This document shows, in pieces, positions 11,364-24,405 of a stretch of DNA of 64,000 nucleotides (position 1 is its first letter; each line of letters begins with the position of its first letter). The notes under the pieces were generated by a model. It saw nothing but the letters and a program-made list of their open reading frames with translations. It was not told the DNA's origin and did not search any database. The stretch covers positions 1 through 64,000 of the forward strand of contig JAGAOO010000083.1 in assembly GCA_017623675.1 (NCBI GenBank). Reading direction: 5' to 3'. Source of the DNA: Lachnospiraceae bacterium (GTDB taxonomy: Bacteria; Bacillota; Clostridia; Lachnospirales; Lachnospiraceae). A program made the position numbers and the translations under genes.

Positions 11364-12051
11364 TGCGTTATTTATTACAGGAACCGGAACAGATATGGGA
11401 AAGACCTATATCAGTGGTTTGATAGTTAAGAAGCTGGCAGAATGTGGGAAAAATCCCGGTTACTATAAGGCTGCCATGAGTGGAAATGAGCGCCGGGAAG
11501 ACGGAAGTTTGATTCCGGGGGATGCCTTGTTTGTTAGGCAATGCTCCGGGATTAGCCAGCCGTTAGAAGAAATGTGTCCGTATGTGTATGAGAATGCCTA
11601 TTCTCCTCATTTGGCTTCCCGTCTGGAAGGAAATCCGGTAAAAATGGACGTGGTAAAGCAGGGATTTAATGCTGCTCTGGAAAAGTATGACTATCTGACA
11701 GTAGAAGGGAGTGGGGGAATTCTATGTCCTATTTGCTTTGATGAAGAGAAAATCCAGCTAGAGGACATTGTGAAGGAACTGCATCTTTCTTCTATTATTA
11801 TTGCAGATGCGGGACTGGGAACGATTAATAGTGTGGTTTTGACCGCAGAGTATATGAGGGCAAAGCATATGACCGTCAAGGGAATCATTTTTAACCATTA
11901 TCATCCGGGAAATGTGATGGAAGAGGATAATATTTTCATGTGTGAATACATGACCGGTCTTCCGACATTAGCAAAAGTAGAGGATGGAGCTACAGAGTTG
12001 AATATTGATGTAGATGTATTAACAGGACTTTATGAGGAGAGAAAAATATGA
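11356..12051 (+). CDS. bioD: dethiobiotin synthetase
   Basis: The 231-residue ATP-dependent carboxylase closes the ureido ring of 7,8-diaminopelargonate to give dethiobiotin. The P-loop GTGTDMGKT is at residues 9-17, YYKAAMSG supplies the substrate lysine region, and VEGSGGILCP is the conserved GAGG-like loop. The start ATG 11356 overlaps the bioB end, and the stop overlaps bioA by 4 bases (ATGA), which indicates translational coupling. Confidence 0.93.
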   Translation: MSSALFITGTGTDMGKTYISGLIVKKLAECGKNPGYYKAAMSGNERREDGSLIPGDALFVRQCSGISQPLEEMCPYVYENAYSPHLASRLEGNPVKMDVVKQGFNAALEKYDYLTVEGSGGILCPICFDEEKIQLEDIVKELHLSSIIIADAGLGTINSVVLTAEYMRAKHMTVKGIIFNHYHPGNVMEEDNIFMCEYMTGLPTLAKVEDGATELNIDVDVLTGLYEERKI

Positions 12052-13232
12052 TTTGGTATCCATATGAACAAATGAAAACAATGAAAGCACCATATGAAAT
12101 TGTGGATGCAGAAGGAGTATATCTTTATACAGAAGACCAAAAGTTAATTGACTCGGTTTCTTCCTGGTGGTGCATGATTCATGGATATAAGCATCCGGAG
12201 CTTACGGCTGCGATTAAGGAGCAGGCGGACCATTTTTGCCATGTCATGCTGGGGGGATTGACCCATGAACCGGTACAAAGGCTCTCCCAAAAGCTGCAGA
12301 CATTTCTTCCGGGAGATTTGGATTATTGTTTCTTTTCTGACTCCGGAAGTGTTGGGGTAGAGGTTGCACTGAAAATGGCTTTGCAGTACAACACCAACTT
12401 GGGGCGAAAACGTCCTATGGTGCTGGCACTTGAGCATGCCTATCATGGAGATACATTCAAGGCGATGGAAGTGGGAGATGATGAGGATTATCATTTTGCC
12501 TTTGATGAAAAGAAAGAAGTGGTTCACATTCCTACGGAAGTATCTGCCTTGGAGGAAGCCTTTGAGAAATATCATGATAAGCTGAACTGCTTTATTGTGG
12601 AACCACTGTTGCAGGGAGCCGGTGGTATGCGGATGTATGATATTTTCTTTCTGGAGCGTGCGAGACAACTGTGCAGTCAATATGATGTGTTGCTGATTTT
12701 TGATGAGGTGGCTACCGGTTTTGGACGTACCGGGAATCGTTTCGTAGCGGATTTGGTTCTGCCGGATATTTTAGTGCTGGGAAAAGCCTTGACCGGAGGC
12801 TATATCGGTCATGCGGTGACTGTGGCGAACCACAAGGTATTTCAAGCATTTTACAGTGATGATGACCGTCATGCCCTGATGCATGGACCTACATTTATGG
12901 GAAATGCACTGGCATGTGCGGTTGCACTGAAGGGAATTGAGATTTTTGAACGGGAAGATTATATGAGTAAGATTAAGAGAATTGAAGAAATTTCCCATAG
13001 GGAGATGGACGGATTCACAGACCCACGAATCAAGGAAGTACGTATTATGGGTGGCTGTACTTGTATCGAGGTGTATGATTCAAAAACTTTGGAAGGCTTC
13101 CAACAGTTCGCCTATGAGAGAGGTGTGTTCAGCCGTCCGTTCCTGAAATATATGTATGCTATGGTTCCTTACATTATTGGGGAAGAAGATTTGGTGAAGA
13201 TTTTTGATACCATGAAAGAATGGTTTCGATAG
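12048..13232 (+). CDS. bioA: adenosylmethionine-8-amino-7-oxononanoate aminotransferase
   Basis: The 394-residue class III aminotransferase uses PLP to convert 8-amino-7-oxononanoate (KAPA) into 7,8-diaminopelargonate. Seen in the sequence are SVSSWWCMIHGYKHPEL near the N-terminus (the BioA substrate tryptophans), HAYHGDTFKAMEVGD, IFDEVATGFGRTGN and the PLP lysine K246 in LGKALTGG. HGPTFMGNALACA is the BioA-type end of the active site. It is slightly shorter than many BioA proteins (about 430) but all key motifs are present. bioF and earlier genes are missing from this operon. Confidence 0.93.
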   Translation: MIWYPYEQMKTMKAPYEIVDAEGVYLYTEDQKLIDSVSSWWCMIHGYKHPELTAAIKEQADHFCHVMLGGLTHEPVQRLSQKLQTFLPGDLDYCFFSDSGSVGVEVALKMALQYNTNLGRKRPMVLALEHAYHGDTFKAMEVGDDEDYHFAFDEKKEVVHIPTEVSALEEAFEKYHDKLNCFIVEPLLQGAGGMRMYDIFFLERARQLCSQYDVLLIFDEVATGFGRTGNRFVADLVLPDILVLGKALTGGYIGHAVTVANHKVFQAFYSDDDRHALMHGPTFMGNALACAVALKGIEIFEREDYMSKIKRIEEISHREMDGFTDPRIKEVRIMGGCTCIEVYDSKTLEGFQQFAYERGVFSRPFLKYMYAMVPYIIGEEDLVKIFDTMKEWFR

Positions 13233-13268
13233 TATTTCCAATTTATGGTTGCATAAATGAAATAAAAG

Positions 13269-13287
13269 TGATATCATGATGATATCA
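13269..13287. promoter_or_regulatory. 19-bp perfect palindrome upstream of the SPFH/RHH genes
   Basis: TGATATCAT-G-ATGATATCA is symmetric around one central base. It lies 22 bases before the start at 13309. Ribbon-helix-helix proteins bind such palindromes, and one is encoded two genes downstream, so autoregulation is a reasonable inference. Confidence 0.45.
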
Positions 13288-13308
13288 AAAAGAAAGAAGG
13301 GATTTCCT

Positions 13309-14313
13309 ATGGAAGAAAAAGTATTAAAGAAAAGAAAAAATGGTATGCTGGTTCTTATTTTATCCATTCTCATTTATGCAGCAGCAATTGCCGGTACAAT
13401 CATAGGTGGAATGAAATATGAAAATGGTGGCAATCCGTTTTTCTTAGTAGTTTGTATTGTTTGTGTTGTTTTACTTTGTGTCACATGGTTATTATGGCCC
13501 GGACTTAAGGTGTTAAAACCACAGGAAGCATTGGTGTTGACTCTGTTTGGAAAGTATATCGGTACTTTGAAGGAAGAAGGATTTTATTTTGTAAATCCAT
13601 TTTGTACAGCAGTCAATCCGGCAGCTAAGACCACATTGAATCAGAGCGGTGATGTGAAAGGTGCGGATAAGAATCCTGCTACCACGACGGAACCGGTTCA
13701 AAAGAAAATCTCATTAAAGATTATGACTTTGAGCAATAATCGTCAAAAAATCAATGACTGTCTTGGTAATCCGGTAGAAATCGGAATTGCAGTTACCTGG
13801 CGAATTACGGATACTGCAAAGGCAGTATTCAATGTAGACAATTACAAGGAATTTTTATCCCTGCAATGTGACAGTGCATTAAGAAATATTGTGCGTCTCT
13901 ATCCATATGATGTGGCTCCGAATGTAGATACCACAGGAGATGGAGTTGCAGATGAAGGCAGCCTGCGTGGTTCCAGTGAAACGGTGGCAACAAGAATCCG
14001 TGATGAAATTCAGGAAAGAGTAAATGAAGCCGGTATTGAAGTGGTGGAAGCACGAATTACATACCTTGCTTATGCACCGGAAATTGCCGCGGTTATGTTG
14101 CAACGGCAGCAGGCATCTGCTATTATTGATGCTAGAAAGATGATTGTAGACGGTGCTGTTGGCATGGTGGAAATGGCTTTAGAGCGTTTGAATGAGAATC
14201 AGGTTGTTGTTTTGGATGAAGAACGGAAGGCTGCGATGGTATCGAATCTTCTGGTTGTCCTTTGTGGAAATCACGATGCACAACCGGTTGTAAATTCGGG
14301 AAGTCTGTATTGA
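13309..14313 (+). CDS. SPFH/stomatin-like membrane protein
   Basis: The product from ATG 13309 is 334 residues; GAAGGG lies 7 bases upstream, whereas the earlier ATG 13276 sits in the palindrome and lacks a site. Two membrane helices near the N-terminus are followed by an SPFH (band 7) domain: [20 protein letters not shown] and then [20 protein letters not shown]. The C-terminal helices contain [20 protein letters not shown] and a stretch of about 60 residues ending in [12 protein letters not shown] proteins form large membrane rings that organise membrane proteins. A small ribbon-helix-helix gene starts one base after the stop, which suggests joint expression. Partner proteins are unknown. 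Confidence 0.8.
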
Positions 14314-14314
14314 T

Positions 14315-14515
14315 ATGGCAGATAATACCAAGAAACAGATTCCACTTCGACTTTCACCAAAGCTTTATGATGCAATTGCAGCCTGGGCAGAAGATGATTT
14401 TCGTTCCGTGAATGGACAGATTGAATATCTTCTGTCAGAATGTGTCAGACAGCGAAAGAAAAATGGAAAGTATGTGTCAGATGAGATTGATGTGCCGCCG
14501 GAATTGGATATTTAG
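14315..14515 (+). CDS. small Arc-like ribbon-helix-helix protein
   Basis: The 66-residue protein reads [20 protein letters not shown] then [15 protein letters not shown], the beta strand plus two helices of Arc/MetJ-type DNA-binding proteins. Its ATG lies one base after the SPFH stop, so translation is probably coupled. It is a likely repressor of its own operon through the palindrome at 13269-13287. It could instead act as an adaptor with the SPFH protein, because such pairs are conserved in Firmicutes. Confidence 0.75.
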
Positions 14516-14524
14516 GGAGAATCT

Positions 14525-15274
14525 ATGAAAAAATTGGAAACAAATGATTGGATTATGTTGAATTCGATTATTTATAAGATATATACCATGAGTGACTTTG
14601 ACCGGATGCGTCATGAGCTGATAGAGGATTTATCAATGTTAGTTAACTTTGATAGTGCTGACTTCTATCTGGCGTCACGTGATGAGAATAGATTACTGGA
14701 TGATCCGGTTATGTATCATTGTGAAGAAGATATGTCTCAGGTATATGAAACTTTAGATTATAGCATGGGAATTATGCTAAGTGGCAAATCATTGATCTAT
14801 CGGGAAACAGATATTATGAGCGACGAGACCCGGGTAAATACAGATTACTATAAGAAAGTATATCAGCCAAATCAATGGCATTATTCTCTCCAGATGATTA
14901 TTGCAAAGGAAAATCGTTTTTTGGGAGTGATTACCTTTTATCGGGTTAAGGGAAAGGATGACTTTCAATATGATGATATATTTGTTTTGGACATATTAAA
15001 GGACCATCTGGCTTACCGTTTAGAGCAGCAGACACATATGAACAATTATGTGGAAGAGAAGCTTACAATCTCCGAAGCAGTTTTGAAATATGAGTTGACA
15101 AGGAGAGAAAAGACCATTCTGCAGATGTTGATGTCCGGACGGGAAAATGCAGATATCTGTGAGGAACTGGTGATCAGTAATAATACATTAAAAAAGCACA
15201 TTTTGAATATTTATCGAAAGCTGGGAATTAAGAATCGGGTTCAGTTATTTAAGATGGTGAAAGAATGGGAATAG
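14525..15274 (+). CDS. LuxR-family transcriptional regulator with N-terminal sensor domain
   Basis: The 249-residue protein has a GAF-like sensor part (about 1-170; FDSADFYLASRDENRLLDDP) and a LuxR-type helix-turn-helix at the end (ELTRREKTILQMLMSGREN and ISNNTLKKHILNIYRKLGIK). AGGGAG precedes ATG 14525, 9 bases after the small RHH gene, so it may share that transcript. It stands directly before the amine-oxidising operon and is the best candidate for its regulator. A CTACTCC box is at 15293-15299, just upstream of the operon promoter. The ligand is unknown. Confidence 0.8.
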   Translation: MKKLETNDWIMLNSIIYKIYTMSDFDRMRHELIEDLSMLVNFDSADFYLASRDENRLLDDPVMYHCEEDMSQVYETLDYSMGIMLSGKSLIYRETDIMSDETRVNTDYYKKVYQPNQWHYSLQMIIAKENRFLGVITFYRVKGKDDFQYDDIFVLDILKDHLAYRLEQQTHMNNYVEEKLTISEAVLKYELTRREKTILQMLMSGRENADICEELVISNNTLKKHILNIYRKLGIKNRVQLFKMVKEWE

Positions 15275-15292
15275 AAGAGTGTTGTGTTAAAA

Positions 15293-15360
15293 CTACTCCT
15301 TTTGGGTAATAAAAATGGTAAAAACATATTATTGAACTTCAAACGTATTTGGACTAATAT
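15293..15360 (+). promoter_or_regulatory. promoter and CTACTCC box of the oxidoreductase operon
   Basis: TTGAAC (15332-15337) and TAATAT (15355-15360) are 17 bases apart. CTACTCCttttGGGTA (15293-15307) lies about 30 bases before the -35 box and is a near-inverted repeat like other CTAYYCC boxes in the window. Confidence 0.45.
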
Positions 15361-15383
15361 CATTAACAGATAGAAGATGTATA

Positions 15384-15430
15384 TTACGTAAGGCGAAGGG
15401 GCTGTCATTTGGCAGCTCCTTTTTACGTAA
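15384..15430 (+). terminator. leader hairpin with T-run (terminator or attenuator)
   Basis: GGGGCTG (15398-15404) pairs with CAGCTCC (15413-15419) and is followed by five T. It is framed by TTACGTAA at 15384-15391 and 15423-15430, which can extend the stem. It lies downstream of the promoter at 15332-15360 and upstream of the first gene at 15483, so it could attenuate the operon. It may instead simply end the LuxR transcript. Confidence 0.6.
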
Positions 15431-15482
15431 TATGTTAACAAACCACCGTCAGGAAGATAGTTATGATTAGGAGGATGAGAGA

Positions 15483-15800
15483 ATGGAAAGAATTGAAAAC
15501 CATCCAATACTAGGTGAAACACCCAAGAGAAAGAAAGTAACATTCAGTTATGATGGAAAGATGCTGGAAGGATATGAGGGTGAACCAATTGCTACGGCAT
15601 TGAAGGCAGCAGGTGTTATGGCCCACAGATACACAGCAAAAACACATGAGCCAAGAGGAATTTTCTGTGCAATAGGAAGATGTACCGACTGTGTCATGAT
15701 TGTAGATGGCAAGCCGAATATCAGAACCTGTATCACACCACTTGAAGCAGGAATGGTTGTTCAGACACAGTATGGAGTTTCAGCAACACCAGAAGAGTAG
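15483..15800 (+). CDS. HcnA-like [2Fe-2S] subunit of an amine/opine dehydrogenase
   Basis: The 105-residue protein is a plant-type [2Fe-2S] domain of the HcnA/sarcosine-oxidase-alpha N-terminal kind. It starts with KKVTFSYDGKMLEGYEGEPI and carries the ligands in GIFCAIGRCTDCVMIVDGKP and a fourth cysteine in IRTCITP (C-x4-C-x2-C-x11-C). Such subunits pass electrons between flavins in hydrogen cyanide synthase, opine oxidases and hydroxyproline dehydrogenases. TTAGGAGGATG precedes ATG 15483. It is first in a tight run of seven genes and is best seen as the small subunit of the complex with the next three products. Confidence 0.85.
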   Translation: MERIENHPILGETPKRKKVTFSYDGKMLEGYEGEPIATALKAAGVMAHRYTAKTHEPRGIFCAIGRCTDCVMIVDGKPNIRTCITPLEAGMVVQTQYGVSATPEE

Positions 15801-15826
15801 TAAAATACGGATTGGAGAAATGGATT

Positions 15827-17407
15827 ATGAAGATAGAACGTTATGACATGATAGTAATTGGTGCCGGTCCGGCAGGTTTATCTGCAGCAATCGAAGCGGC
15901 AAAGAAAGGACTGAAGCCAATCGTATTTGATGAAAATGCAAGACCGGGTGGACAGCTCTTTAAGCAGATTCATAAATTTTTCGGTTCGAAAGAGCATAAA
16001 GCAAAAGTAAGGGGATTTAAAATAGGAGAGGAACTTCTGGAAGAGGCAGAAGAATACGGTGTGGAAGTAATTCTGAATGCTACTGTGGTCGGATTATATC
16101 CGGAAAAAGAAGTGACAGTAAAAATAGGTGACAAGGTAAAGCATTATAAAGGAGATGCAATATTAGTTGCAACCGGTGCAAGTGAGAATATGGTAAACTT
16201 TGAAGGTTGGACAAAACCGGGTGTAATTGGTGCCGGAGCTGCTCAGACAATGATGAATCTGCATCATATTAAACCGGGAAACAGAATTCTGATGCTTGGT
16301 TCCGGAAATGTTGGACTTGTTGTAAGCTATCAGCTGATGCAGGCAGGGTGTGAGGTTGTAGCTCTTGCAGATGCAGCACCAAGAGTAGGTGGATATGGAG
16401 TTCATGCAGCTAAAGTAGCAAGATGTGGAGTTCCGTTTTACCTTTCACATACCATTGTGAAAGTGGAAGGTGATGAGTGTGTAACAGGAGTTGTGATTGG
16501 TCAGGTTGGACCGGATTGGAAAGTAATTCCCGGAACGGAGAAGCATTTTGATGTTGATACAGTATGTCTTGCAGTTGGATTATCGCCAATGTCACAATTA
16601 TTAAAGCAGGCTGAAGTGAAGATGAACGATACAAAAGGTGGACATGTACCGGAATGTGATAAGCATGGAGCTACAAGCGTTCCGGGTATATATGCAGCAG
16701 GGGATGTATCAGGAATTGAAGAAGCAAGTTCTGCTATGATTGAAGGAAGAATGTCAGGAACAGCCATTGCATGTTATCTGGGATACATGACAGAAGAAGA
16801 AAGGGATTCAAGAATCGACGAGCTTGAAAAACAACTGGATACACTCAGACAGGGGATGTTTGCACCGAAGAACAGAGGCAAACTTGTTGAAAAGACAGAT
16901 GAGGGAATTGATGTTTCCATGAACCTTTTGAATAAAGGATTTGTAACTGATGATGAGATTGAAAGATTCCCCGGTGTAACACATCAGAAGGGAATTCATC
17001 CGGTAATTGAATGTACACAGAATATTCCATGTAACCCATGTCAGGATGCGTGTAAAATGGGTTGTATCCGTATTGGAGAAAATATCACATCTCTTCCGGC
17101 TATTGATCCGGAGAAAAAATGTATCGGTTGTGGAATGTGTGTTGCATCTTGTTCAGGACAGTCTATTTTCCTTGTTGAAGAGGATGTTGAAGAGGGATAT
17201 GGCGAAGTTACAATGCCATATGAATTTTTGCCGGTTCCTGAAGTAGGAGACAGGGGAGTCGCACTTGGAAGAAATGGACAGTATGTATGTGATGCTGAAG
17301 TAACAAAAGTAAGAATAGCACCGGCATTTGATCACACCTATCTGCTTACGATAAAGGTTCCAAATGACATGGTAATGAGAGCAAGATTTTACAAAAAAGA
17401 AGCTTAG
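15827..17407 (+). CDS. HcnB-like FAD/NAD-binding subunit fused to ferredoxin clusters
   Basis: From ATG 15827 (GGAG nine bases upstream) the product has 526 residues. The N-terminus is an FAD site, MIVIGAGPAGLSAAIEAAKK, and a second dinucleotide site is GSGNVGLVVSYQL near residue 160. AAGDVSGIEEASSAMIEGRM is the usual FAD-closing motif. After a helical linker, residues of about 400-460 carry CTQNIPCNPCQDACKMGC and CIGCGMCVASC, ferredoxin-type iron-sulfur ligands. These clusters replace the simple [2Fe-2S] of oxygen-using homologues and point to a ferredoxin-like acceptor, suiting an anaerobe. It is the alpha-like core of the complex. Confidence 0.85.
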   Translation: MKIERYDMIVIGAGPAGLSAAIEAAKKGLKPIVFDENARPGGQLFKQIHKFFGSKEHKAKVRGFKIGEELLEEAEEYGVEVILNATVVGLYPEKEVTVKIGDKVKHYKGDAILVATGASENMVNFEGWTKPGVIGAGAAQTMMNLHHIKPGNRILMLGSGNVGLVVSYQLMQAGCEVVALADAAPRVGGYGVHAAKVARCGVPFYLSHTIVKVEGDECVTGVVIGQVGPDWKVIPGTEKHFDVDTVCLAVGLSPMSQLLKQAEVKMNDTKGGHVPECDKHGATSVPGIYAAGDVSGIEEASSAMIEGRMSGTAIACYLGYMTEEERDSRIDELEKQLDTLRQGMFAPKNRGKLVEKTDEGIDVSMNLLNKGFVTDDEIERFPGVTHQKGIHPVIECTQNIPCNPCQDACKMGCIRIGENITSLPAIDPEKKCIGCGMCVASCSGQSIFLVEEDVEEGYGEVTMPYEFLPVPEVGDRGVALGRNGQYVCDAEVTKVRIAPAFDHTYLLTIKVPNDMVMRARFYKKEA

Positions 17408-17418
17408 GAGGTTCAGTT

Positions 17419-17751
17419 ATGGTTGATATACAGGCAAAATTAAAGGAAATAGGACCTTTTGTGGAGGAACCTGATGATGACCTCTTGGTGTGCAGATGTG
17501 AAGAGGTTACAAAAGGACAGATTAGAAAAGCAGTACATGAAGGTATTTTTACTTTAGAAGAAATGAGAAGATATCTGAGGTCCGGAATGGGTTTGTGTCA
17601 GGGACAAACATGTGGAAAATTGGTAAAATCTATAATAGCAAGTGAATTAAAAGTATCTCCGGCAGAGGTTGTTCCGGCAAGTTCGCGGGCTCCAATGAGA
17701 CCTATTGAGATGTGTATACTTGCAGAAGACGGAGGTGGTTGCGATGAGTAA
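17419..17751 (+). CDS. BFD-like [2Fe-2S] subunit
   Basis: The 110-residue protein has CRCEEVTKGQIRKAVHEG and GMGLCQGQTCGKL, giving CxC ... CxxxxC, the BFD-like [2Fe-2S] site found in the HcnB or sarcosine-oxidase alpha subunit. Here it is a separate gene. AGGAGG precedes ATG 17419 and the gene overlaps the next by 8 bases. It probably relays electrons within the dehydrogenase complex. Confidence 0.85.
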   Translation: MVDIQAKLKEIGPFVEEPDDDLLVCRCEEVTKGQIRKAVHEGIFTLEEMRRYLRSGMGLCQGQTCGKLVKSIIASELKVSPAEVVPASSRAPMRPIEMCILAEDGGGCDE

Positions 17752-18904
17752 TGTGGCAGATGTTGTAATTATCGGTGGTGGAATTAATGGTTGTGCAGCA
17801 GCATATTACCTTGCAAAGGGCGGTACAAAGTCTGTAATTGTATTAGAAGCAAGTAATAGTATAGGACATGGTGGCTCATCTAGAAATGGTGGTGGCGTAC
17901 GTCAGTCCGGAAGAGATATAAGAGAACTTCCATATGCAATGTACGGAATAAAGAATATGTGGCCTACTTTATCAGAAGAGCTGGGAGTCGATACAGAATA
18001 TACACAGAAAGGAAATCTGCGTATGGGAAAGACTCCGGAGCACATTAAAAAGCTTGAAGCACTTACAAAGTCTGCCAACTCTGTAGGTCTTGATGTAAGA
18101 ATGATAGACCAGAAAGAGGTAAAAGAGATATGTCCATATCTTTCAGATGAGGTAATAGGTGCAAGTTGGTGTCCTACAGATGGACATGCGAATCCGCTTA
18201 CAACAACGCTTGGATACTATAAGAGAGCATTGGAAATGGGTGTGAAATTCTACACAGAAGCACCTGTGAAAAGCTTACAGAAGGTAAAAGGAAAAGTACG
18301 GAAAGTAATATTAAATGACGGAACCATATTTGAAGGTGAGACAATCATACTTGTTTCAGGATATGAAAGCAGGGCGATTGCAAGAACCATTGGTGTTGAT
18401 GTTCCTATGACTAGATTAATCGATGAATGTCTTGTGACTGAAATGCAACCACATATGATAGATGTTATGTTTGGATGTGCATCAGCTGATTTCTATGGAC
18501 ATCAGACAAAGCATGGATCATTCGTATTTGGTTCGGATTCCGGTTGGGAAACTGTAGATGAGATGGTAGATCCATCTACCAACATACCGGATCCATCAAA
18601 GCTTATCACCAATTCTATGACATTGTCAGCGAGTTGTAGAGCAATCCAGGGATATATTCCGGCATTGAAAGATGCGAAGATAGTAAGAAGCTGGTGTGGA
18701 TGGTTAGATGAATCATTTGACGGAGTTCCGTTCTTAAGCAGAGTAGATGAAGCTCCGGGATTAATCCTTGCATGTGGTTTTACGGGGCATGGATTTGGAA
18801 CAGCACCGGTAGTAGGACTTATGCTATCCCAAATGGTACAGGGAGAAGAAACTGTAGTCGATATAAGTGCATTGCAATACAATAGATTTAAGCCTTGCAG
18901 ATAA
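17744..18904 (+). CDS. HcnC/sarcosine-oxidase-beta-like FAD amine dehydrogenase
   Basis: The 386-residue product from ATG 17744 (GGAGGTGG upstream) is a DAO-family flavoenzyme. It shows ADVVIIGGGINGCAAAYYLA at the N-terminus, the flavin-adjacent HGGSSRNGGGVRQSGRD, and the C-terminal FAD motif ILACGFTGHGFGTAPVVG. In the family this subunit oxidises a secondary or primary amine such as glycine, sarcosine, hydroxyproline or an opine, producing an imine. The real substrate cannot be read from sequence. The ornithine-cyclodeaminase-like gene that follows suggests an amino-acid-derived product. Confidence 0.85.
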   Translation: MSNVADVVIIGGGINGCAAAYYLAKGGTKSVIVLEASNSIGHGGSSRNGGGVRQSGRDIRELPYAMYGIKNMWPTLSEELGVDTEYTQKGNLRMGKTPEHIKKLEALTKSANSVGLDVRMIDQKEVKEICPYLSDEVIGASWCPTDGHANPLTTTLGYYKRALEMGVKFYTEAPVKSLQKVKGKVRKVILNDGTIFEGETIILVSGYESRAIARTIGVDVPMTRLIDECLVTEMQPHMIDVMFGCASADFYGHQTKHGSFVFGSDSGWETVDEMVDPSTNIPDPSKLITNSMTLSASCRAIQGYIPALKDAKIVRSWCGWLDESFDGVPFLSRVDEAPGLILACGFTGHGFGTAPVVGLMLSQMVQGEETVVDISALQYNRFKPCR

Positions 18905-18922
18905 GAAATGGAGGGAAAGTAA

Positions 18923-20056
18923 ATGGGTACAAAGATAGAGTTTTTATACTTGAGTGAGCCGGACATGATTAAAGCCGGAGTCAAAGATATGGGAAAATGT
19001 GTTGAAGTCATGGAAGACATGATGATAACATTAAAAAAAGGTGACTATGTAATGGGTGGTGAGAACCATAATTCACATGGATGTATGGTTACTTTCCCGG
19101 ATAATCCTGAGTTTGAGGGAATGCCAAAGAATGGAGAAGATAGAAGATTCATGGCCATGCCTGCTTATTTAGGAGGAAACTTCAAAATGGCAGGAATGAA
19201 ATGGTATGGTTCTAATACAGAGAACAAAAAAGAAGGACTCCCACGTTCCATCCTTATGATGATGTTAAATGATAAGGACACAGGAGCTCCACTTGCACTT
19301 ATGTCAGCAAATCTGTTGAGTGCATATAGAACAGGAGCCATTCCGGGAGTAGGTGCAAAATATCTTGCCAGAAAAGATTCCAAGGTAGTATCTATTGTAG
19401 GACCTGGAGTAATGGGAAAGACAAGCCTTGCTGCATTTATGAGTGTTTGTCCTAACATTGATACAGTGAAGATTAAAGGTCGCGGGCAGAAATCAATTGA
19501 TTCTTTTGTAGAATATGTGAAAACAGATTATCCACAGATAAAAAATATCGTAATTTGTGAAACGATGGAAGAAGCAATTAAAGATAGTGATATCATCAGC
19601 ACGACTACTTGTGTAGGCGACAAGGAGGCATTATTCCCATACATTGATGAAGCCTGGATGAAAGAAGGAGCTTTAATCTGTATGCCTTCAGCAGCCAGAT
19701 TTAACGAAAACTTTTATCTGGATAATAATACTAAATTAGTAGTAGACAATTATAAGTTATATGAGGCATGGGCAGAGGAGTATCCATATCCGAGCTACGA
19801 CCCGGTGCAGATTGTAGGATGTAAGTTTATGGATCTTTTACATGATAAGAAAATCACAAGAGACGACATAATTGACATTACAGATGTTATAACCGGAAAA
19901 CTGCCTGGAAGAGATAATGATAAGCAGAGAATCATCTATTCAGTTGGTGGTATGCCTGTTGAAGATATCGCATGGGGCGAGACGGTTTACAAAAGAGCAT
20001 TAGAGCTTGGAATTGGAATTAAACTTCCGCTTTGGGATACACCAGAACTGCATTAG
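18923..20056 (+). CDS. ornithine cyclodeaminase/mu-crystallin family protein
   Basis: The 377-residue protein belongs to the ornithine cyclodeaminase/mu-crystallin fold. Visible are KMAGMKWYGSNTENKKEGLP, DTGAPLALMSANLLSAYRTG and the NAD-binding turn SIVGPGVMGKTSLAAF. The order substrate lysine region, arginine in AYRTGA, then Rossmann domain is that of the family. Close relatives are often auto-annotated as tyramine oxidase subunit B, a name I would not trust as function. It may deaminate, reduce or cyclise the imine or amino acid released by the flavoenzyme. GGAGGG precedes ATG 18923. Confidence 0.8.
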   Translation: MGTKIEFLYLSEPDMIKAGVKDMGKCVEVMEDMMITLKKGDYVMGGENHNSHGCMVTFPDNPEFEGMPKNGEDRRFMAMPAYLGGNFKMAGMKWYGSNTENKKEGLPRSILMMMLNDKDTGAPLALMSANLLSAYRTGAIPGVGAKYLARKDSKVVSIVGPGVMGKTSLAAFMSVCPNIDTVKIKGRGQKSIDSFVEYVKTDYPQIKNIVICETMEEAIKDSDIISTTTCVGDKEALFPYIDEAWMKEGALICMPSAARFNENFYLDNNTKLVVDNYKLYEAWAEEYPYPSYDPVQIVGCKFMDLLHDKKITRDDIIDITDVITGKLPGRDNDKQRIIYSVGGMPVEDIAWGETVYKRALELGIGIKLPLWDTPELH

Positions 20057-20086
20057 TCAGAGATAATATATAAGGAGGATACGCTT

Positions 20087-20434
20087 ATGAGCAGAATATC
20101 AAAGATTGAAGTTATTACCGGAATGTCGAAACTCACAAATCTTATACAGGAGCTTAGTAAGGTTGGAGTAAGAGGAGTTACGGTCATGCAGGTGCTTGGC
20201 TGTGGCGTTGAAATGGGAACACAAGAATATGAGGTAGAGCTTAATGAAGTGATGGAACTGTTGCCAAAGCAGCAGATAAATATTGTGGTTGAAGCAAACA
20301 AGGTTGATAAAATCCTTGATATTATCAAAAAGGAGCTTTACACAGGACATATTGGAGATGGAAAAATCTTTGTATATGATATCGACAATGTTATCAGAGT
20401 TCGTACCGGAGAAGAGGGAGTAGAAGCTCTCTAG
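20087..20434 (+). CDS. PII-like nitrogen regulatory protein with altered T-loop
   Basis: The 115-residue protein has the PII fold: strand KIEVITGMSKLTNLIQELSK, the later LLPKQQINIVVEANKVDKIL, and the ligand-binding C-terminal part GHIGDGKIFVYDIDNVIRVR. The T-loop is shorter and reads GCGVEMGTQEYEVELNEV, so the usual tyrosine that is uridylylated in GlnB (GHTEIYRG context) is not preserved. AGGAGG precedes ATG 20087. Placed between an amine-oxidising enzyme set and an amino-acid-type permease, it probably senses adenine nucleotides or 2-oxoglutarate and controls either the permease or the enzymes. Confidence 0.8.
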   Translation: MSRISKIEVITGMSKLTNLIQELSKVGVRGVTVMQVLGCGVEMGTQEYEVELNEVMELLPKQQINIVVEANKVDKILDIIKKELYTGHIGDGKIFVYDIDNVIRVRTGEEGVEAL

Positions 20435-20453
20435 AACACAAAAGGAGTTGCTT

Positions 20454-21857
20454 ATGGATGAAAAGAAATTAGGATTAGGAAACGTCGTATCAGTATCTGT
20501 CGGACTTGTTGTAGCTACAAGCTGTCTTGTTTCGCTGGGTTCGGGAGCAGGAACCCTTGGTGTTACATTTATACTGGCAATGGCAATCGCAATGCTTCTG
20601 AATATGACAACAGTTGCATCATTGTCGGAGCTGAACGCACTCATGCCCAATACAACAGGAGGACTTGCACAGTATACACTGGCAGCACTTGGTCCTTTTC
20701 CAACACTGATTTCAATGGTTGGAGGATATATAATATGTAATACAATGTCATGTGGTGTAGAAGCGTCTATTTTCTCTTTTTCACTGGCAGATACGTTAGA
20801 GCTTAATATACCAAGCTTTGTGTATACATTAATTATGACTGTGGTTATTTTGCTGGCAAATCTGCGCGGCATTGACATGTTTGCAAAAATACAGGATATC
20901 GTAGCATTTTTATTGGTAGGTTCACTGGTGGCAATGGGATTTATTGGAATGATTGGAATTGGCACTGGAGTAAAAGTTGAACAACCTTATATGCTTAACA
21001 CTGATTTTAAGGATATTGCAGCTATGACTGCAGTTGCTTTTTGGCTTTTTATCGGAGCAGAGTATGCAATCCCTATCTCAAAAGAGGTCAAGAATGCAAA
21101 GAGGAATGTGCCACTTGGAATGATGATAGGTCTGTTTTTGATATTTATTATGCAGTCAGTTATGGTTTTCGGCTTTCACAATTACGTAGAATGGGATGAA
21201 CTTGCAAACTCAGCAGCCCCTCATATTGTTTACGGATATGCTGTGCTTGGAAAAGCCGGAAAAATATGGATGATGCTGGTTGGAGCACTGGCTGTTATCA
21301 GTACGCAGAATTCAACCGTTAATTCTCTTGCGACAATCTGTCAGGGAATGGCTAAGATGAATATGCTTCCAAAGATTTTTTCTAAAACAAACAAGCATAA
21401 TGTACCATGGTTCGGTCAGGTATTTGTAAGTGTGGCAATACTGGTATTTGGATATTTAAGTGACAGTTCGGCGGATATGATTTCATTCCTTATTTTAGCT
21501 GGCTCAGTCTTTTGGATGATATCATATGTGCTTGCACATATTGATTTATTGGTTTTCAGAAAACGTCTGCCAAATGCACCACGAAACTTCAAAGTGCCGG
21601 GTGGAGTAATCATCCCGATAATCGGAATTGTTGGGACAGTATATATGATTCTCAATATTTCAAGTGACCCGCATGAACGTCTTATGATATGGCTTTTGAC
21701 GGGTGGTTGTTTCGTAGTGCTTGGAGTATATTCAGCTATCTGGATTAAGGTGAAAATGAAAATGAAAATTTTCAAGAGTGTTCCTTTGGAGAAAGTTATG
21801 GCTATGGAAAATGACCTTTACTACCATGTTCGTAAGAGTAAAGGAATATGGAGATAA
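20454..21857 (+). CDS. APC-family amino acid/amine permease
   Basis: From ATG 20454 (AAAGGAG seven bases upstream) the protein has 467 residues and about 12 membrane helices. GLGNVVSVSVGLVVATSCLV and the first helices match the APC superfamily. The conserved cytoplasmic loop SKEVKNAKRNVPLGMMIG is the E-x-x-x-A-x-R-x-x-P motif of amino acid permeases. As the last gene of the operon it probably imports the amine or opine oxidised by the upstream enzymes. The substrate is not known. Confidence 0.85.
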   Translation: MDEKKLGLGNVVSVSVGLVVATSCLVSLGSGAGTLGVTFILAMAIAMLLNMTTVASLSELNALMPNTTGGLAQYTLAALGPFPTLISMVGGYIICNTMSCGVEASIFSFSLADTLELNIPSFVYTLIMTVVILLANLRGIDMFAKIQDIVAFLLVGSLVAMGFIGMIGIGTGVKVEQPYMLNTDFKDIAAMTAVAFWLFIGAEYAIPISKEVKNAKRNVPLGMMIGLFLIFIMQSVMVFGFHNYVEWDELANSAAPHIVYGYAVLGKAGKIWMMLVGALAVISTQNSTVNSLATICQGMAKMNMLPKIFSKTNKHNVPWFGQVFVSVAILVFGYLSDSSADMISFLILAGSVFWMISYVLAHIDLLVFRKRLPNAPRNFKVPGGVIIPIIGIVGTVYMILNISSDPHERLMIWLLTGGCFVVLGVYSAIWIKVKMKMKIFKSVPLEKVMAMENDLYYHVRKSKGIWR

Positions 21858-21906
21858 AAATATAATAGGAAAAGCACCATTTTCTCATTTTTGCATATTC
21901 TATCTG

Positions 21907-21938
21907 ATGGGTACAAATAATGTAATAATTTGTCCCAT
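21907..21938. promoter_or_regulatory. inverted repeat ATGGGtACAAAT...ATTTGTCCCAT
   Basis: ATGGGTACAAAT (21907-21918) and ATTTGTCCCAT (21928-21938) are inverted with one bulged base and a 9-base loop. It lies 50 bases after the permease gene and 30 before the surface protein. There is no clear T-run, so an operator or mRNA structure is as likely as a terminator. Confidence 0.4.
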
Positions 21939-21969
21939 TAAGAAAGAAATGTAAAAATGAGAGGGAGCT

Positions 21970-23319
21970 ATGAAGAAAATTAAAAGAATCTTAAAGAGAT
22001 GTATGGCAGTATTGTGTATTGGTGTGATTGCAATATCGCTAAATTCCAGTGAATTGATGGCAAGCGGAAACTTTTCAACAGAGGCACGTTATTCCGGAGG
22101 CAGTTCGATTGCTGAGATTATGAGTAAGTATATTTACTTTATAGAAGGCAATCTTACAGGAACTACAACTGCACATACCTCCGGCTCAATTGTAGTGGGA
22201 GGAGATTTGAATTATGCATCTTCAGGTTTTGGCAATATAATGGTTGCACCGTCCTATATTGGTCATATTTGCGGGCTGAATTATATTAACAGTATGTTTC
22301 CCGGAACAGAAGGTTATCAAAGTGAGAGAATTATCTATTATGGTACGGCAGAGCCGGGAGTGCCGGGTTACTTATTCTACAATCCGAAGGGTGGAAACAG
22401 CAATGAAAGCATCCTGTTCCAGAATTCGGAGTATATGTCGGTTGCGACAATTATGAATGCAGTCCGTCAGGAGGCTGCAGGACTGGCAGCAAAGGGAAAT
22501 ACCCAGGCCTATACCATAGAAAATAAAGTGCTGACCATTGATTTTAGTAAATCCCAACATATTACAATTTCAGAGGATGTCTCTCAGATACAACGAATAG
22601 AACTAAAGAATGTAACCATTGAAGAACTGATGAAACAGTCACATATTATATCTTTTATAAGCACAGGAACTGTGAATCTGAATGCTCAGAATATCTACGT
22701 AAATGGCAATACCATTGATCAGAAGTTTATGAATTATGCTATTAATAATGATTCAGGGAGTGCGTCAACGGGAGGACAATATTATCTCAGTGGATTAAAT
22801 CTGATATGGAATATACCGAATGCAAAAAAAGTGAATTGCATAAATCTGAACGGACAGCTGGTGGCTCCCGATGCAGATGTTACGTTGACAGGCGGAAGAC
22901 ATGAAGGCTGTGTCATTGCTTTGTCTGTATATACAGATTCAGAAGCACATTTTTATCCGTTGAGCGTGATAAATACGATATTGGAAGAGCCGGACAGTGA
23001 AGAGGCATCAAGCAGTGAAGAGGCATCAAGTAGTGAAGAGGCATCAAGCAGTGAAGAAGAACCAAGTAGCGAAGAAGAACCGAGCAGTGAAGTAAAACCA
23101 TCCACGGAGGAACGTAGAGGCAGCACTTCAGATATAGAGGATCTTGAAACTGTGAAAATAGTAACGACTACGGAAAACAAGGTAGAAACAACAATGACAG
23201 AGGGGCAGATTCGTAACAGGGTTGTTCAGACGGGAGACCAGGAACCACTTATCTGGATTATGAGTATGGCTATTCTGTCCTTGGGGGGAGGAGTGCTGTT
23301 AATTCGTAGAAGAAAATAG
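21970..23319 (+). CDS. choice-of-anchor A family surface protein
   Basis: The 449-residue protein starts at ATG 21970 behind GAGGGAGC. A signal peptide (KKIKRILKRCMAVLCIGVIA) is followed by a choice-of-anchor A domain: FIEGNLTGTTTAHTSGSIVV at the beginning and LNGQLVAPDADVTLTGGRHE at its end, the hallmark of that family. A linker of six serine/glutamate repeats leads to VVQTGDQ, a divergent sortase-type motif, then a membrane helix and RRRK. The protein is likely wall-anchored. The domain is common in adhesins and spore or biofilm surface proteins. Confidence 0.8.
   Translation: MKKIKRILKRCMAVLCIGVIAISLNSSELMASGNFSTEARYSGGSSIAEIMSKYIYFIEGNLTGTTTAHTSGSIVVGGDLNYASSGFGNIMVAPSYIGHICGLNYINSMFPGTEGYQSERIIYYGTAEPGVPGYLFYNPKGGNSNESILFQNSEYMSVATIMNAVRQEAAGLAAKGNTQAYTIENKVLTIDFSKSQHITISEDVSQIQRIELKNVTIEELMKQSHIISFISTGTVNLNAQNIYVNGNTIDQKFMNYAINNDSGSASTGGQYYLSGLNLIWNIPNAKKVNCINLNGQLVAPDADVTLTGGRHEGCVIALSVYTDSEAHFYPLSVINTILEEPDSEEASSSEEASSSEEASSSEEEPSSEEEPSSEVKPSTEERRGSTSDIEDLETVKIVTTTENKVETTMTEGQIRNRVVQTGDQEPLIWIMSMAILSLGGGVLLIRRRK
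22996..23103 (+). repeat. six 18-base repeats encoding the Ser/Glu linker
   Basis: Units begin at 22996, 23014, 23032, 23050, 23068 and 23086. The first three are AGTGAAGAGGCATCAAGY; the last three drift to AGYGAAGAAGAACCRAGY and beyond. They encode SEEASS and SEEEPS. Confidence 0.8.
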
Positions 23320-23342
23320 TATAGAAATATATGAGAATCAAT

Positions 23343-23382
23343 GAGCTGTCGCTTTCACGATGCGTGGGGACAGCTCGTTTTT
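23343..23382 (+). terminator. intrinsic terminator
   Basis: GAGCTGTC (23343-23350) pairs with GACAGCTC (23369-23376), then GTTTTT. It closes the choice-of-anchor A gene. Confidence 0.7.
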
Positions 23383-23483
23383 ATGTATAAAAATCCTTTA
23401 TGGTTTTTTAATTCCTTTCCTCTAACCCTTTTTCCTATCTTAATTTTTTCAGTGATACACTTTTCTCATAAGGAGGTGGCGTC

Positions 23484-23678
23484 ATGATGGGAAAATTTGA
23501 AACAATAAAAGAAAAAGAAGACGAGCTTGGAAGCAGAATAGAACGATATTTATTTCATCATCCATATATTGGTTGCTTCCTGTCTATAGTTGGTGTGCCA
23601 ATTCTGTGTTTGCTGACCATGGCAGTTTGCACAGCGGTGATTATGATTCCGATTTCGTTCTTTATGGGATGGCTTTAA
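23484..23678 (+). CDS. small membrane protein of unknown function
   Basis: The 64-residue product starts at ATG 23484 (or 23487) after a strong AAGGAGGTGG. The N-terminal half is charged (KFETIKEKEDELGSRIERYL). The C-terminal half is one or two hydrophobic helices (GCFLSIVGVPILCLLTMAVC and IMIPISFFMGWL). It stands alone just before the kdp remnants. I do not recognise the family. Confidence 0.6.
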   Translation: MMGKFETIKEKEDELGSRIERYLFHHPYIGCFLSIVGVPILCLLTMAVCTAVIMIPISFFMGWL

Positions 23679-23771
23679 TAAATTAATAGAATCTTTATGC
23701 ATAAATAGAGATTGCTAACACCGTTTTTATAAATAGAGTGCTAAGATTGGGCGAAAAAGGAGGACAAGGTT

Positions 23772-23857
23772 ATGGAAATATTATCTTGCATCATTGAATA
23801 ATGGCATTAGTACTATTAATTTACTACGTATATGTTCTTATGAAAGGAGATGAATAG
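23772..23857 (+). pseudogene. kdpF: kdpF remnant
   Basis: ATG 23772, after an AAAGGAGGAC site, gives MEILSCIIE and a stop. The next frame continues as MALVLLIYYVYVLMKGDE (23801-23857), which is the single helix and basic end of KdpF. A one-base shift separates the halves. KdpA sequence follows two bases later. Confidence 0.55.
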
Positions 23858-23859
23858 AA

Positions 23860-24405
23860 ATGATGCATATTATTTTGCAGTACATAATATATCTTTTGAT
23901 TCTGGTAGGATTAGCGGTTCCACTTGGAGCTTATATCAGAAAAATAATGAATGGTGAAAAGACTTTTCTTTCTAAAATTCTTTCTCCTGTAGAAAAAGGG
24001 ATTTATCGATTGCTGAAGATAAATGAATCGGAAGAAATGAATTGGAAACAGTATGCTAAGAGCGTTATCGTCTTTTCCCTTATAGGACTTGCCTTTTTGT
24101 TTATGTTACAAGTCATACAGGGTGCACTGCCGGGAAATCCGCAAAAATTATCAAATATAAAATGGGATTTGGCATTCAATACGGCAGTTAGCTTTGTTAC
24201 TAATACAAACTGGCAGGCATATTCAGGAGAAAGTACTTTAAGTTATTTGACACAGGCAGTTGGACTTACAGTACAGAATTTCATATCTGCTGCAACAGGA
24301 ATTGCTGTGTTGTTCGCGTTAATCCGTGGTTTTGTCAGATCCAAAACAGATTTGAAAATCCCTGATAAATATGGTATTCTTTATATTAGATTTCAGTATA
24401 AGTGA
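23860..24405 (+). pseudogene. kdpA: truncated potassium-transporting ATPase subunit KdpA
   Basis: The 181-residue reading frame matches only the first third of KdpA, which is normally about 560 residues. It includes GLAVPLGAYIRKIMNGEKTF, the first selectivity-filter region VTNTNWQAYSGESTLSYLTQ and FISAATGIAVLFALIRGFVR. After that the sequence runs into an unrelated tail (LKIPDKYGILYIRFQYK) and stops. kdpB, kdpC and kdpDE are absent. The high-affinity K+ pump is therefore lost at this site. Confidence 0.85.

Follow-up and report, generated by a model that had tools for sequence, protein, structure and literature searches.

The stretch of DNA analysed here (the window, 64,000 nt in length) comes from a Lachnospiraceae bacterium and carries an operon of seven genes at positions 15483-21857. 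All seven genes are open and lie on the same strand, separated by gaps of 11-30 bp, with a sole overlap of 8 bp between the BFD and DAO genes. An earlier note on this DNA had described seven closely packed genes and assigned them to families; the packing is as it stated, and Pfam and NCBIfam profile matches confirm the families, which are, in gene order, Fer2_4, Pyr_redox_2 with Fer4_7, BFD, DAO, ornithine cyclodeaminase (OCD)/mu-crystallin, PII and APC. In three genes, translation was taken to begin at ATG rather than at the TTG given by a mechanical list of open reading frames (ORFs): the flavoprotein (15827), the DAO gene (17744) and the permease (20454). The genes, and two short protein features considered below, are as follows:

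15483..15800, + strand: [2Fe-2S] subunit (Fer2_4), corresponding to the N-terminal portion of a SoxA-type alpha subunit (PF13510, 8.3e-31)
15827..17407, + strand: FAD/NAD subunit, corresponding to the middle of a SoxA-type alpha subunit and carrying a C-terminal 4Fe-4S-type region (PF07992 Pyr_redox_2, 2.5e-42; PF12838 Fer4_7, 3.4e-6; soxA, 3.8e-35, below cut-off)
17419..17751, + strand: BFD-like [2Fe-2S] subunit, corresponding to the SO_alpha_A3 portion of a SoxA-type alpha subunit (PF04324 Fer2_BFD, 1.3e-13; PF17806 SO_alpha_A3, 2.2e-10)
17744..18904, + strand: DAO-family catalytic flavoprotein subunit (PF01266, 4e-63)
18923..20056, + strand: OCD/mu-crystallin-family protein of NCBIfam family NF004848, putative SbnB-like NAD(P)-dependent dehydrogenase (OCD_Mu_crystall, 1.6e-82; NF004848, 587.6 bits)
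20087..20434, + strand: dedicated PII protein (PF00543 P-II, 2.9e-23)
20207..20263, + strand: acidic T-loop of PII, residues 41-59, VEMGTQEYEVELNEVMELL, net charge -6 (from the sequence)
20454..21857, + strand: APC-family amino acid/amine permease (PF13520 AA_permease_2, 3e-29)
21795..21812, + strand: VMAMEN motif, a candidate docking site for PII in the permease's basic C-terminal tail (tail alignment and pattern search)

The same genes are found together in many relatives. Our first set of loci comprises the best 80 of 163 encoding a relative, all of which hold a relative of the OCD protein at ≥50% identity; the 51 loci with at least 6 kb on either side of the OCD gene form the base of the counts. 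Gene presence was scored by tblastn anywhere in the locus, as some genes had been lost to overlapping antisense ORFs. All seven parts are present in 39 of these 51 loci, the four redox genes together in 45, PII in 44 and the permease in 46, along with an AraC regulator in 39 and RidA in 18. The association of the seven genes thus exceeds chance. A second set contains 40 loci, 33 of them with an OCD relative at ≥50% identity, of which 23 have both flanks; here the four redox genes are found in 21, all seven parts in 10 and RidA in 14. Because of overlap between the two sets (L100 and L157, for instance, carry the same permease sequence), their counts were not summed. Hosts in the first set include Roseburia, Butyribacter, Anaerostipes, Butyrivibrio, Acetobacterium and Coriobacteriales. 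The earlier note had proposed an import and oxidation unit with its own PII, and this co-occurrence in many genomes supports it; the joint presence of PII and permease, on which it had staked the proposal, is observed in 44 of the 51 loci.

Distribution is nevertheless patchy, as none of the seven other genomes of the window's genus (three of which are 67-86% complete) contains a match; within the order, NF004848 is matched above its cut-off in 22 of 392 genomes. Among 61 relatives, strong OCD and strong DAO homologues (both E < 1e-130) occur in the same four genomes (G000, G021, G036 and G044). Weaker matches are found to both proteins in G047 (OCD 5.3e-19, DAO 2.5e-48), to DAO only in G054, and to OCD only in G020 and six others. 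Ten OCD loci showed no DAO set nearby, five of them being cut by contig ends (L078, L083, L091, L095 and L108), and a DAO homologue is present in all ten genomes. In the case of L083, that match is a fragment at a contig end, adjoining a second AraC-PII-APC-OCD set (L174).

The dehydrogenase and its possible substrates

The Fer2, flavoprotein and BFD proteins match consecutive positions of the soxA profile (14-100, 170-489 and 522-597, respectively), so that what looks like one alpha subunit is encoded in three pieces, and the DAO protein would be the catalytic subunit. Cofactor residues are highly conserved. Fer2 cysteines C62, C67, C70 and C83 are invariant in 82 of 82 aligned rows (spacing C-x4-C-x2-C-x12-C), as are BFD cysteines C25, C27, C60 and C65 in 81 of 81 (C-x-C-x32-C-x4-C). 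The operon therefore possesses the two types of [2Fe-2S] motif typical of the opine/D-hydroxyproline/L-proline dehydrogenase superfamily, the middle spacing of the BFD-type motif being x15-20 in PMC4575208 versus x32 here. The Arg-x-Trp FMN motif of the superfamily (R315, W317) is kept in 83 of 84 DAO rows. Nine further cysteines of the flavoprotein, from C396 to C442, are kept in 80-81 of 83 rows, in a pattern that fits 4Fe-4S clusters.

From these features, the four genes are predicted to form a flavin/iron-sulphur dehydrogenase of this superfamily, and the operon as a whole is a widespread variant of the flavin/iron-sulphur opine and imino acid dehydrogenase kind. According to PMC4575208, one purified opine dehydrogenase of the superfamily contains FAD, FMN and [2Fe-2S], and OdhABC and D-hydroxyproline dehydrogenase (alpha4beta4gamma4) share with our system a DAO catalytic subunit with Arg-x-Trp, an FAD/NAD-type subunit, two kinds of [2Fe-2S] motif and putative transporter genes nearby. 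Unlike them, the window system has both [2Fe-2S] domains and the flavoprotein in three separate genes, nine extra conserved cysteines in the flavoprotein, and SbnB-like and PII partners, and it occurs in anaerobes. Among solved structures, the nearest chain to the DAO subunit is 1y56_B (1.2e-37), and the flavoprotein also matches 1y56_A (3.2e-14). We take 1y56_B to be a subunit of an archaeal L-proline dehydrogenase, deposited as sarcosine oxidase; the match is distant, and nothing here points to proline as the substrate.

The predicted substrate class is most likely an N-substituted amino acid. We propose that the operon imports an amino-acid-derived secondary amine and oxidises it anaerobically, PII docking on the permease tail to stop import, and we put the probability of this reading at about 0.55. 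The permease would import an opine-like or N-alkyl amino acid, and oxidation would occur in the cytoplasm and without oxygen. The DAO subunit would take two electrons from the C-N bond, leaving an imine, and these electrons would pass through the flavin and [2Fe-2S] subunits to the FAD/NAD subunit and then to NAD or ferredoxin, either acceptor being possible given the 4Fe-4S-type region and the pyridine-nucleotide reductase fold. The imine would hydrolyse, aided by RidA in the relatives that carry it. RidA proteins function in imine hydrolysis, and RidA in 18 of 51 loci thus fits an imine product. The OCD-family protein would be an NAD(P)-dependent dehydrogenase of the opine type, acting on the imported compound itself or on a fragment that is released.

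Variant loci offer further hints. An iron-containing alcohol dehydrogenase (Fe-ADH) is found in none of the 51 loci of the first set and in 5 of the 23 of the second; Fe-ADH and an ammonium transporter (Amt), where variants carry them, fit aldehyde and ammonia, respectively. Other forms include a glutamate dehydrogenase-type gene (L140), an amidohydrolase (L163) and EutABC (L092). Gene content suggests that the products are an imine, in some cases an aldehyde, and either ammonia or an amine; it does not single out one compound, and variant loci may differ in substrate. In L177 (7109-14387), genes for an ammonium transporter, PII, OCD and Fe-ADH come after the four redox genes, so that PII adjoins Amt. 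In locus L092 (2438-17122), a single run of genes comprises an oligopeptide-type ABC transporter, OCD, AraC, EutA, EutB, EutC and the redox set of four; the locus ends with the DAO gene, and neither PII nor APC was found in it. Finally, L169 (10702-12207, an Anaerostipes genome) encodes a 502-aa multi-spanning protein adjoining the oxidase genes, with no Pfam, NCBIfam or PDB match, and L178 (14235-15737) encodes a look-alike; the two perhaps represent an unnamed transporter family.

Two other substrates were weighed here. In the first, the enzyme would demethylate sarcosine or another N-methyl amino acid, the DAO subunit releasing formaldehyde that the Fe-ADH of some relatives reduces. The best NCBIfam matches, soxB (5e-37) and soxA, as well as the Fe-ADH genes of the second set, agree with this; both matches fall below the cut-off, no folate-binding GCV_T part was matched in the window genes scanned, and Fe-ADH is absent from the 51 loci of the first set. 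We regard demethylation as improbable. Membership of the heterotetrameric sarcosine oxidases proper was rejected on the same GCV_T result and on the scores (soxA 37.9, 121 and 23 bits for the three parts versus a cut-off of 1164; soxB 127.7 versus 529.45). In the second, the substrate would be an ethanolamine opine, such as N-(2-hydroxyethyl)alanine, which is known from rumen ciliate lipids, or an ethanolamine glycation product, and ethanolamine would be released. EutA, EutB and EutC lie between AraC and Fer2 inside the L092 cluster, and L132 has two pieces of a eutA relative immediately upstream of Fer2, but these are the only two loci of the kind. EutB (26/392 genomes) and NF004848 (22/392), both counted above cut-off, overlap in a single genome, G173, on different contigs, for which reason an ethanolamine opine was rejected as a general answer; we consider this reading quite improbable.

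The OCD-family protein

The OCD protein belongs to NF004848 (587.6 bits versus the NCBI cut-off of 362), a family named 'tyramine oxidase subunit B'; this phrase was not found in the literature searched. Against solved structures, its profile matches 4m54 best (214 bits, profile positions 6-370), which we take to be SbnB, an opine-type N-(2-amino-2-carboxyethyl)-L-glutamate dehydrogenase. The next relatives are a pyrroline carboxylate reductase (152 bits) and an archaeal alanine dehydrogenase (144 bits), while the true ornithine cyclodeaminase 1u7h scores only 69 bits. Residues R75, K93, R108 and R136 are invariant in 120 rows. The catalytic Asp228 of ornithine cyclodeaminase would fall in the stretch MPSAARFN, where position 258 is A in 64, G in 15 and F in 12 of 120 rows; no conserved Asp is observed there, the alignment of this loop being uncertain. 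Asp228 serves the leaving ammonia group, and a putative OCD of Corynebacterium glutamicum, with Gly at this position, had no detectable OCD activity, according to PMC3702523. Four control genomes, that of C. glutamicum among them, have an NF004848 match, which in one of the four (not specified which) lies above the cut-off; that the tested protein belongs to the family is a guess, and its negative result is a hint only.

The earlier note had likened this protein to the ornithine cyclodeaminase of Agrobacterium opine catabolism. That analogy is not supported, as the nearest solved relative is SbnB and nothing was found for an Agrobacterium-style arginine-ornithine-proline route; the cyclodeaminase reading was set aside on the similarity to SbnB and the missing Asp. 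A route in which a true cyclodeaminase converts ornithine to proline, followed by L-proline dehydrogenase, would draw on the OCD Pfam family and on the closeness of the DAO subunit to 1y56_B, but the bit scores, the MPSAARFN stretch and, if the family guess is right, the inactive C. glutamicum protein all argue against it, and we consider it very improbable.

We infer instead that the OCD-family protein is an opine-type NAD(P) dehydrogenase, because it is nearest to SbnB, shows no conserved Asp at the expected place and belongs to a Pfam family that also contains the sponge-type opine dehydrogenases (PMC4575208). The likeness to SbnB extends over nearly the full length, the difference being that the protein here stands in a catabolic context.

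Homologues in other settings were also observed. In L150 (9072-10205), an NF004848 homologue lies between ATP-grasp and UDP-galactopyranose mutase genes, near a glycosyltransferase, in a polysaccharide-type locus. This context hints at an opine-like group made for a polysaccharide, so that NF004848 proteins may also work in synthesis, which counts against the reading proposed above. In L166 (5399-13799), a homologue is accompanied by hydantoinase A and B genes and an oligopeptide-type ABC transporter.

The PII protein and the permease tail

The window PII has the nucleotide-binding residues of its family: G90, D91 and K93 (G-D-G-K loop) and R106 (RTG motif) are present in 33 of 33 sequences, so that nucleotide sensing is likely. 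At what we take to be the 2-oxoglutarate site, the Lys58 position is Lys in 33/33. A search of the window's genome (93.8% complete assembly, E ≤ 1e-5) detected just one other PII, which forms the C-terminal domain of an Amt fusion protein of 586 aa (G000:C27, locus L224:1486-3246) and has a T-loop charge of 0. The window PII, rather than lying beside or being fused to an ammonium transporter as in a GlnK-Amt pair, adjoins the APC permease. The transporter beside PII varies: most loci have an APC permease, L145, L147, L149, L153, L163 and L178 have an ABC importer, and L177 has Amt. In the ABC form, the ATPase adjoins PII (Pfam SBP_bac_8 and TOBE_2 in L149, TOBE_2 in L163).

T-loops differ accordingly in form. 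In 28 permease-linked PIIs (alignment A3, including L086, where OCD lies between the two genes), the T-loop reads V/I-[EQ]-x-G-[TSA]-x-E-[YF], with a charge of 0 to -6 (mean -4.0). Five other PIIs, with charges of 0 to +2, do not have that form: four are ABC-linked (L145, L147, L153 and L163), and the fifth (L140), which keeps E-Y, is far from a permease without the motif described next.

The C-terminal tail of permeases adjoining PII is basic and carries the motif V-M-A-M-E-N-x-[LM]-Y. Among 70 distinct PII-linked permeases, A450 and M451 are conserved at 100%, V448 at 99%, Y456 at 96% and E452 at 90%; F440, K441 and P444 reach 86-94%, while positions 445-447 are at 31-54% and 457-467 at 16-61%. 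We classified 95 distinct permeases of at least 430 aa by a strict motif (V[ML]AM[ED]) and by PII adjacency (within 400 bp). Motif and adjacent PII occur together in 76, and one more has the motif with PII 1.2 kb away (L086). Without the motif, PII is adjacent once (L133, which reads IMAMENELY) and distant once (L140). Of the 16 permeases without PII in the locus, 12 lack the motif (including L129 and L131, from a more distant permease family, and L161, which reads VIAMD) and 4 have it. After removal of relatives above 80% identity, the table becomes 38, 3, 1 and 11 (Fisher p 5e-8). Tail charge shows the same division, averaging +5.7 for motif permeases with adjacent PII (76 tails, range -1 to +9), +6.6 for motif permeases without (5 tails), +3 in L133, and -1.1 for those with neither (13 tails, range -5 to +2; L129, L131 and L140 are poorly framed).

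The motif was also searched for independently of the operon. In 285 Lachnospiraceae genomes, VMAMEN has 21 matches in 18 genomes, versus 3 for the reversed control pattern. Nineteen of the 21 fall in tails of APC permeases, three of which are remnants (L210, L215 and one of two matches in L212); the other two are unrelated. PII is directly upstream of 14 of the 16 full-length permeases, the exceptions being G1328 and G408:C71; among the 16, the contexts of G036 and G408:C64 were taken from loci L154 and L132, and that of the window from its own sequence. Pairs of motif permease and PII are not confined to amine oxidation: in L207 (which stops at a contig end) and L219 they lie beside a class-III aminotransferase and a urea amidolyase, respectively, with no OCD or DAO in the stretch seen. 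In L219 (3854-10962), the urea amidolyase (biotin carboxylase and allophanate hydrolase genes) is directly followed by the pair.

The association between motif and PII, the non-basic tails of permeases without the motif, and the ABC-linked PIIs without an acidic T-loop lead us to infer that PII docks on the permease tail and gates uptake. The dedicated PII would sense ATP/ADP, and perhaps 2-oxoglutarate, and its acidic T-loop would dock on the basic V-M-A-M-E-N tail, stopping import. More generally, a PII branch may have been re-targeted from ammonium channels to APC-fold permeases by means of the acidic T-loop and the basic V-M-A-M-E-N-x-[LM]-Y tail, forming a movable uptake switch in at least three nitrogen gene sets of gut anaerobes (amine oxidation, aminotransferase and urea amidolyase); we hold this broader proposal tentatively, at slightly less than even odds.

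Several observations weigh against such gating. At the Gln39 position, which we take to belong to the 2-oxoglutarate site, 15 of 33 sequences have Glu and 18 have Gln; the window has Glu, which may weaken 2-oxoglutarate binding. At the Tyr51 position of the T-loop, presumably the uridylylation site characteristic of one PII branch, the window again has Glu and Tyr occurs in only 6 of 33, and the two ranges of T-loop charge touch at 0 (L103 and L147). The four motif permeases without PII in the locus are L061, L114 (which starts 102 bp from a contig end), L137 (also seen as L222) and L212. A standalone relative of the window PII exists elsewhere in the genomes of L137/L222 (G408, 66% identity) and L212 (G1328, 63%), but not in that of L061. 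Finally, motif permeases form one clade (SH-aLRT 100) with about two motif changes on the tree, and a tree-based test of motif against PII adjacency has two independent pairs (sign test p 1), which puts significance out of reach, as it would take at least six such pairs. The Fisher p value is therefore not independent evidence, and the motif-PII association cannot be separated from shared descent.

Single descent also fits a rival reading in which PII makes no contact with the permease, controlling the dehydrogenases or nothing nearby, and the VMAMEN tail is inherited within its clade for another role such as folding, gating or membrane anchoring. Retention of the motif in L061, L137/L222 and L212 is consistent with this. 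On the other hand, pairs in L207 and L219 have no OCD or DAO gene in the stretch seen, A450 and M451 are invariant while positions just past the motif vary, T-loop charge shifts with the transporter, and tails without the motif are not basic. We judge an absence of contact unlikely, if still a serious alternative to docking of PII on the permease tail.

The pair resembles GlnK-AmtB, NrtABCD, UrtABCDE and SbtB-SbtA in that the PII gene adjoins a transporter and ATP-site residues are conserved, but differs from all of these in its partner, an APC permease with a C-terminal tail motif. To our knowledge, APC-fold permeases are not known as trimers. The literature searched yielded no account of PII paired with an APC permease, a weak absence since the search covered openly readable papers, and APC permeases are not among the PII targets listed in one PII review.

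Flanking genes and implications

Regulatory genes, like the permease tail motif and the changing transporter beside PII, were not among the features that the earlier note described. Upstream of the operon lies one more gene that may belong to it:

14525..15274, + strand: LuxR/GerE-type regulator (PF00196, 7.9e-18)

Homologues of 60-66% identity are found upstream of PII in the PII-ABC-OCD2-OCD-oxidase loci L145, L147, L149 and L153 (with one gene between in L153), and one of 46% identity upstream of Fer2 in L090, but a LuxR gene is present in just 1 of the 51 loci. The AraC and RidA genes of relatives are absent from the window operon. Promoter and terminator scans returned numbers close to chance (29 versus a mean of 25.9, and 5 versus 3.8), and Rfam gave no match in 12000-24000 at gathering thresholds. 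Downstream, 21970-23319 encodes a choice-of-anchor A/ice-binding-like adhesive protein with Ser-Glu repeats, in which VQTGD is followed by a C-terminal hydrophobic stretch and an RRRK end, as in sortase-type surface proteins (the sorting motif was identified by eye).

As common gut genera (Roseburia, Anaerostipes, Butyribacter, Butyrivibrio and others) as well as Acetobacterium carry the operon, the compound it acts on is probably widespread. What would surprise a specialist here is the PII-permease pair and its tail motif, which can be tested directly. If docking is true, a short tail motif would predict PII control from sequence, and PII control would extend to the APC permease family, contrary to the view that PII partners are transporters that can be trimers (PMC10710835).

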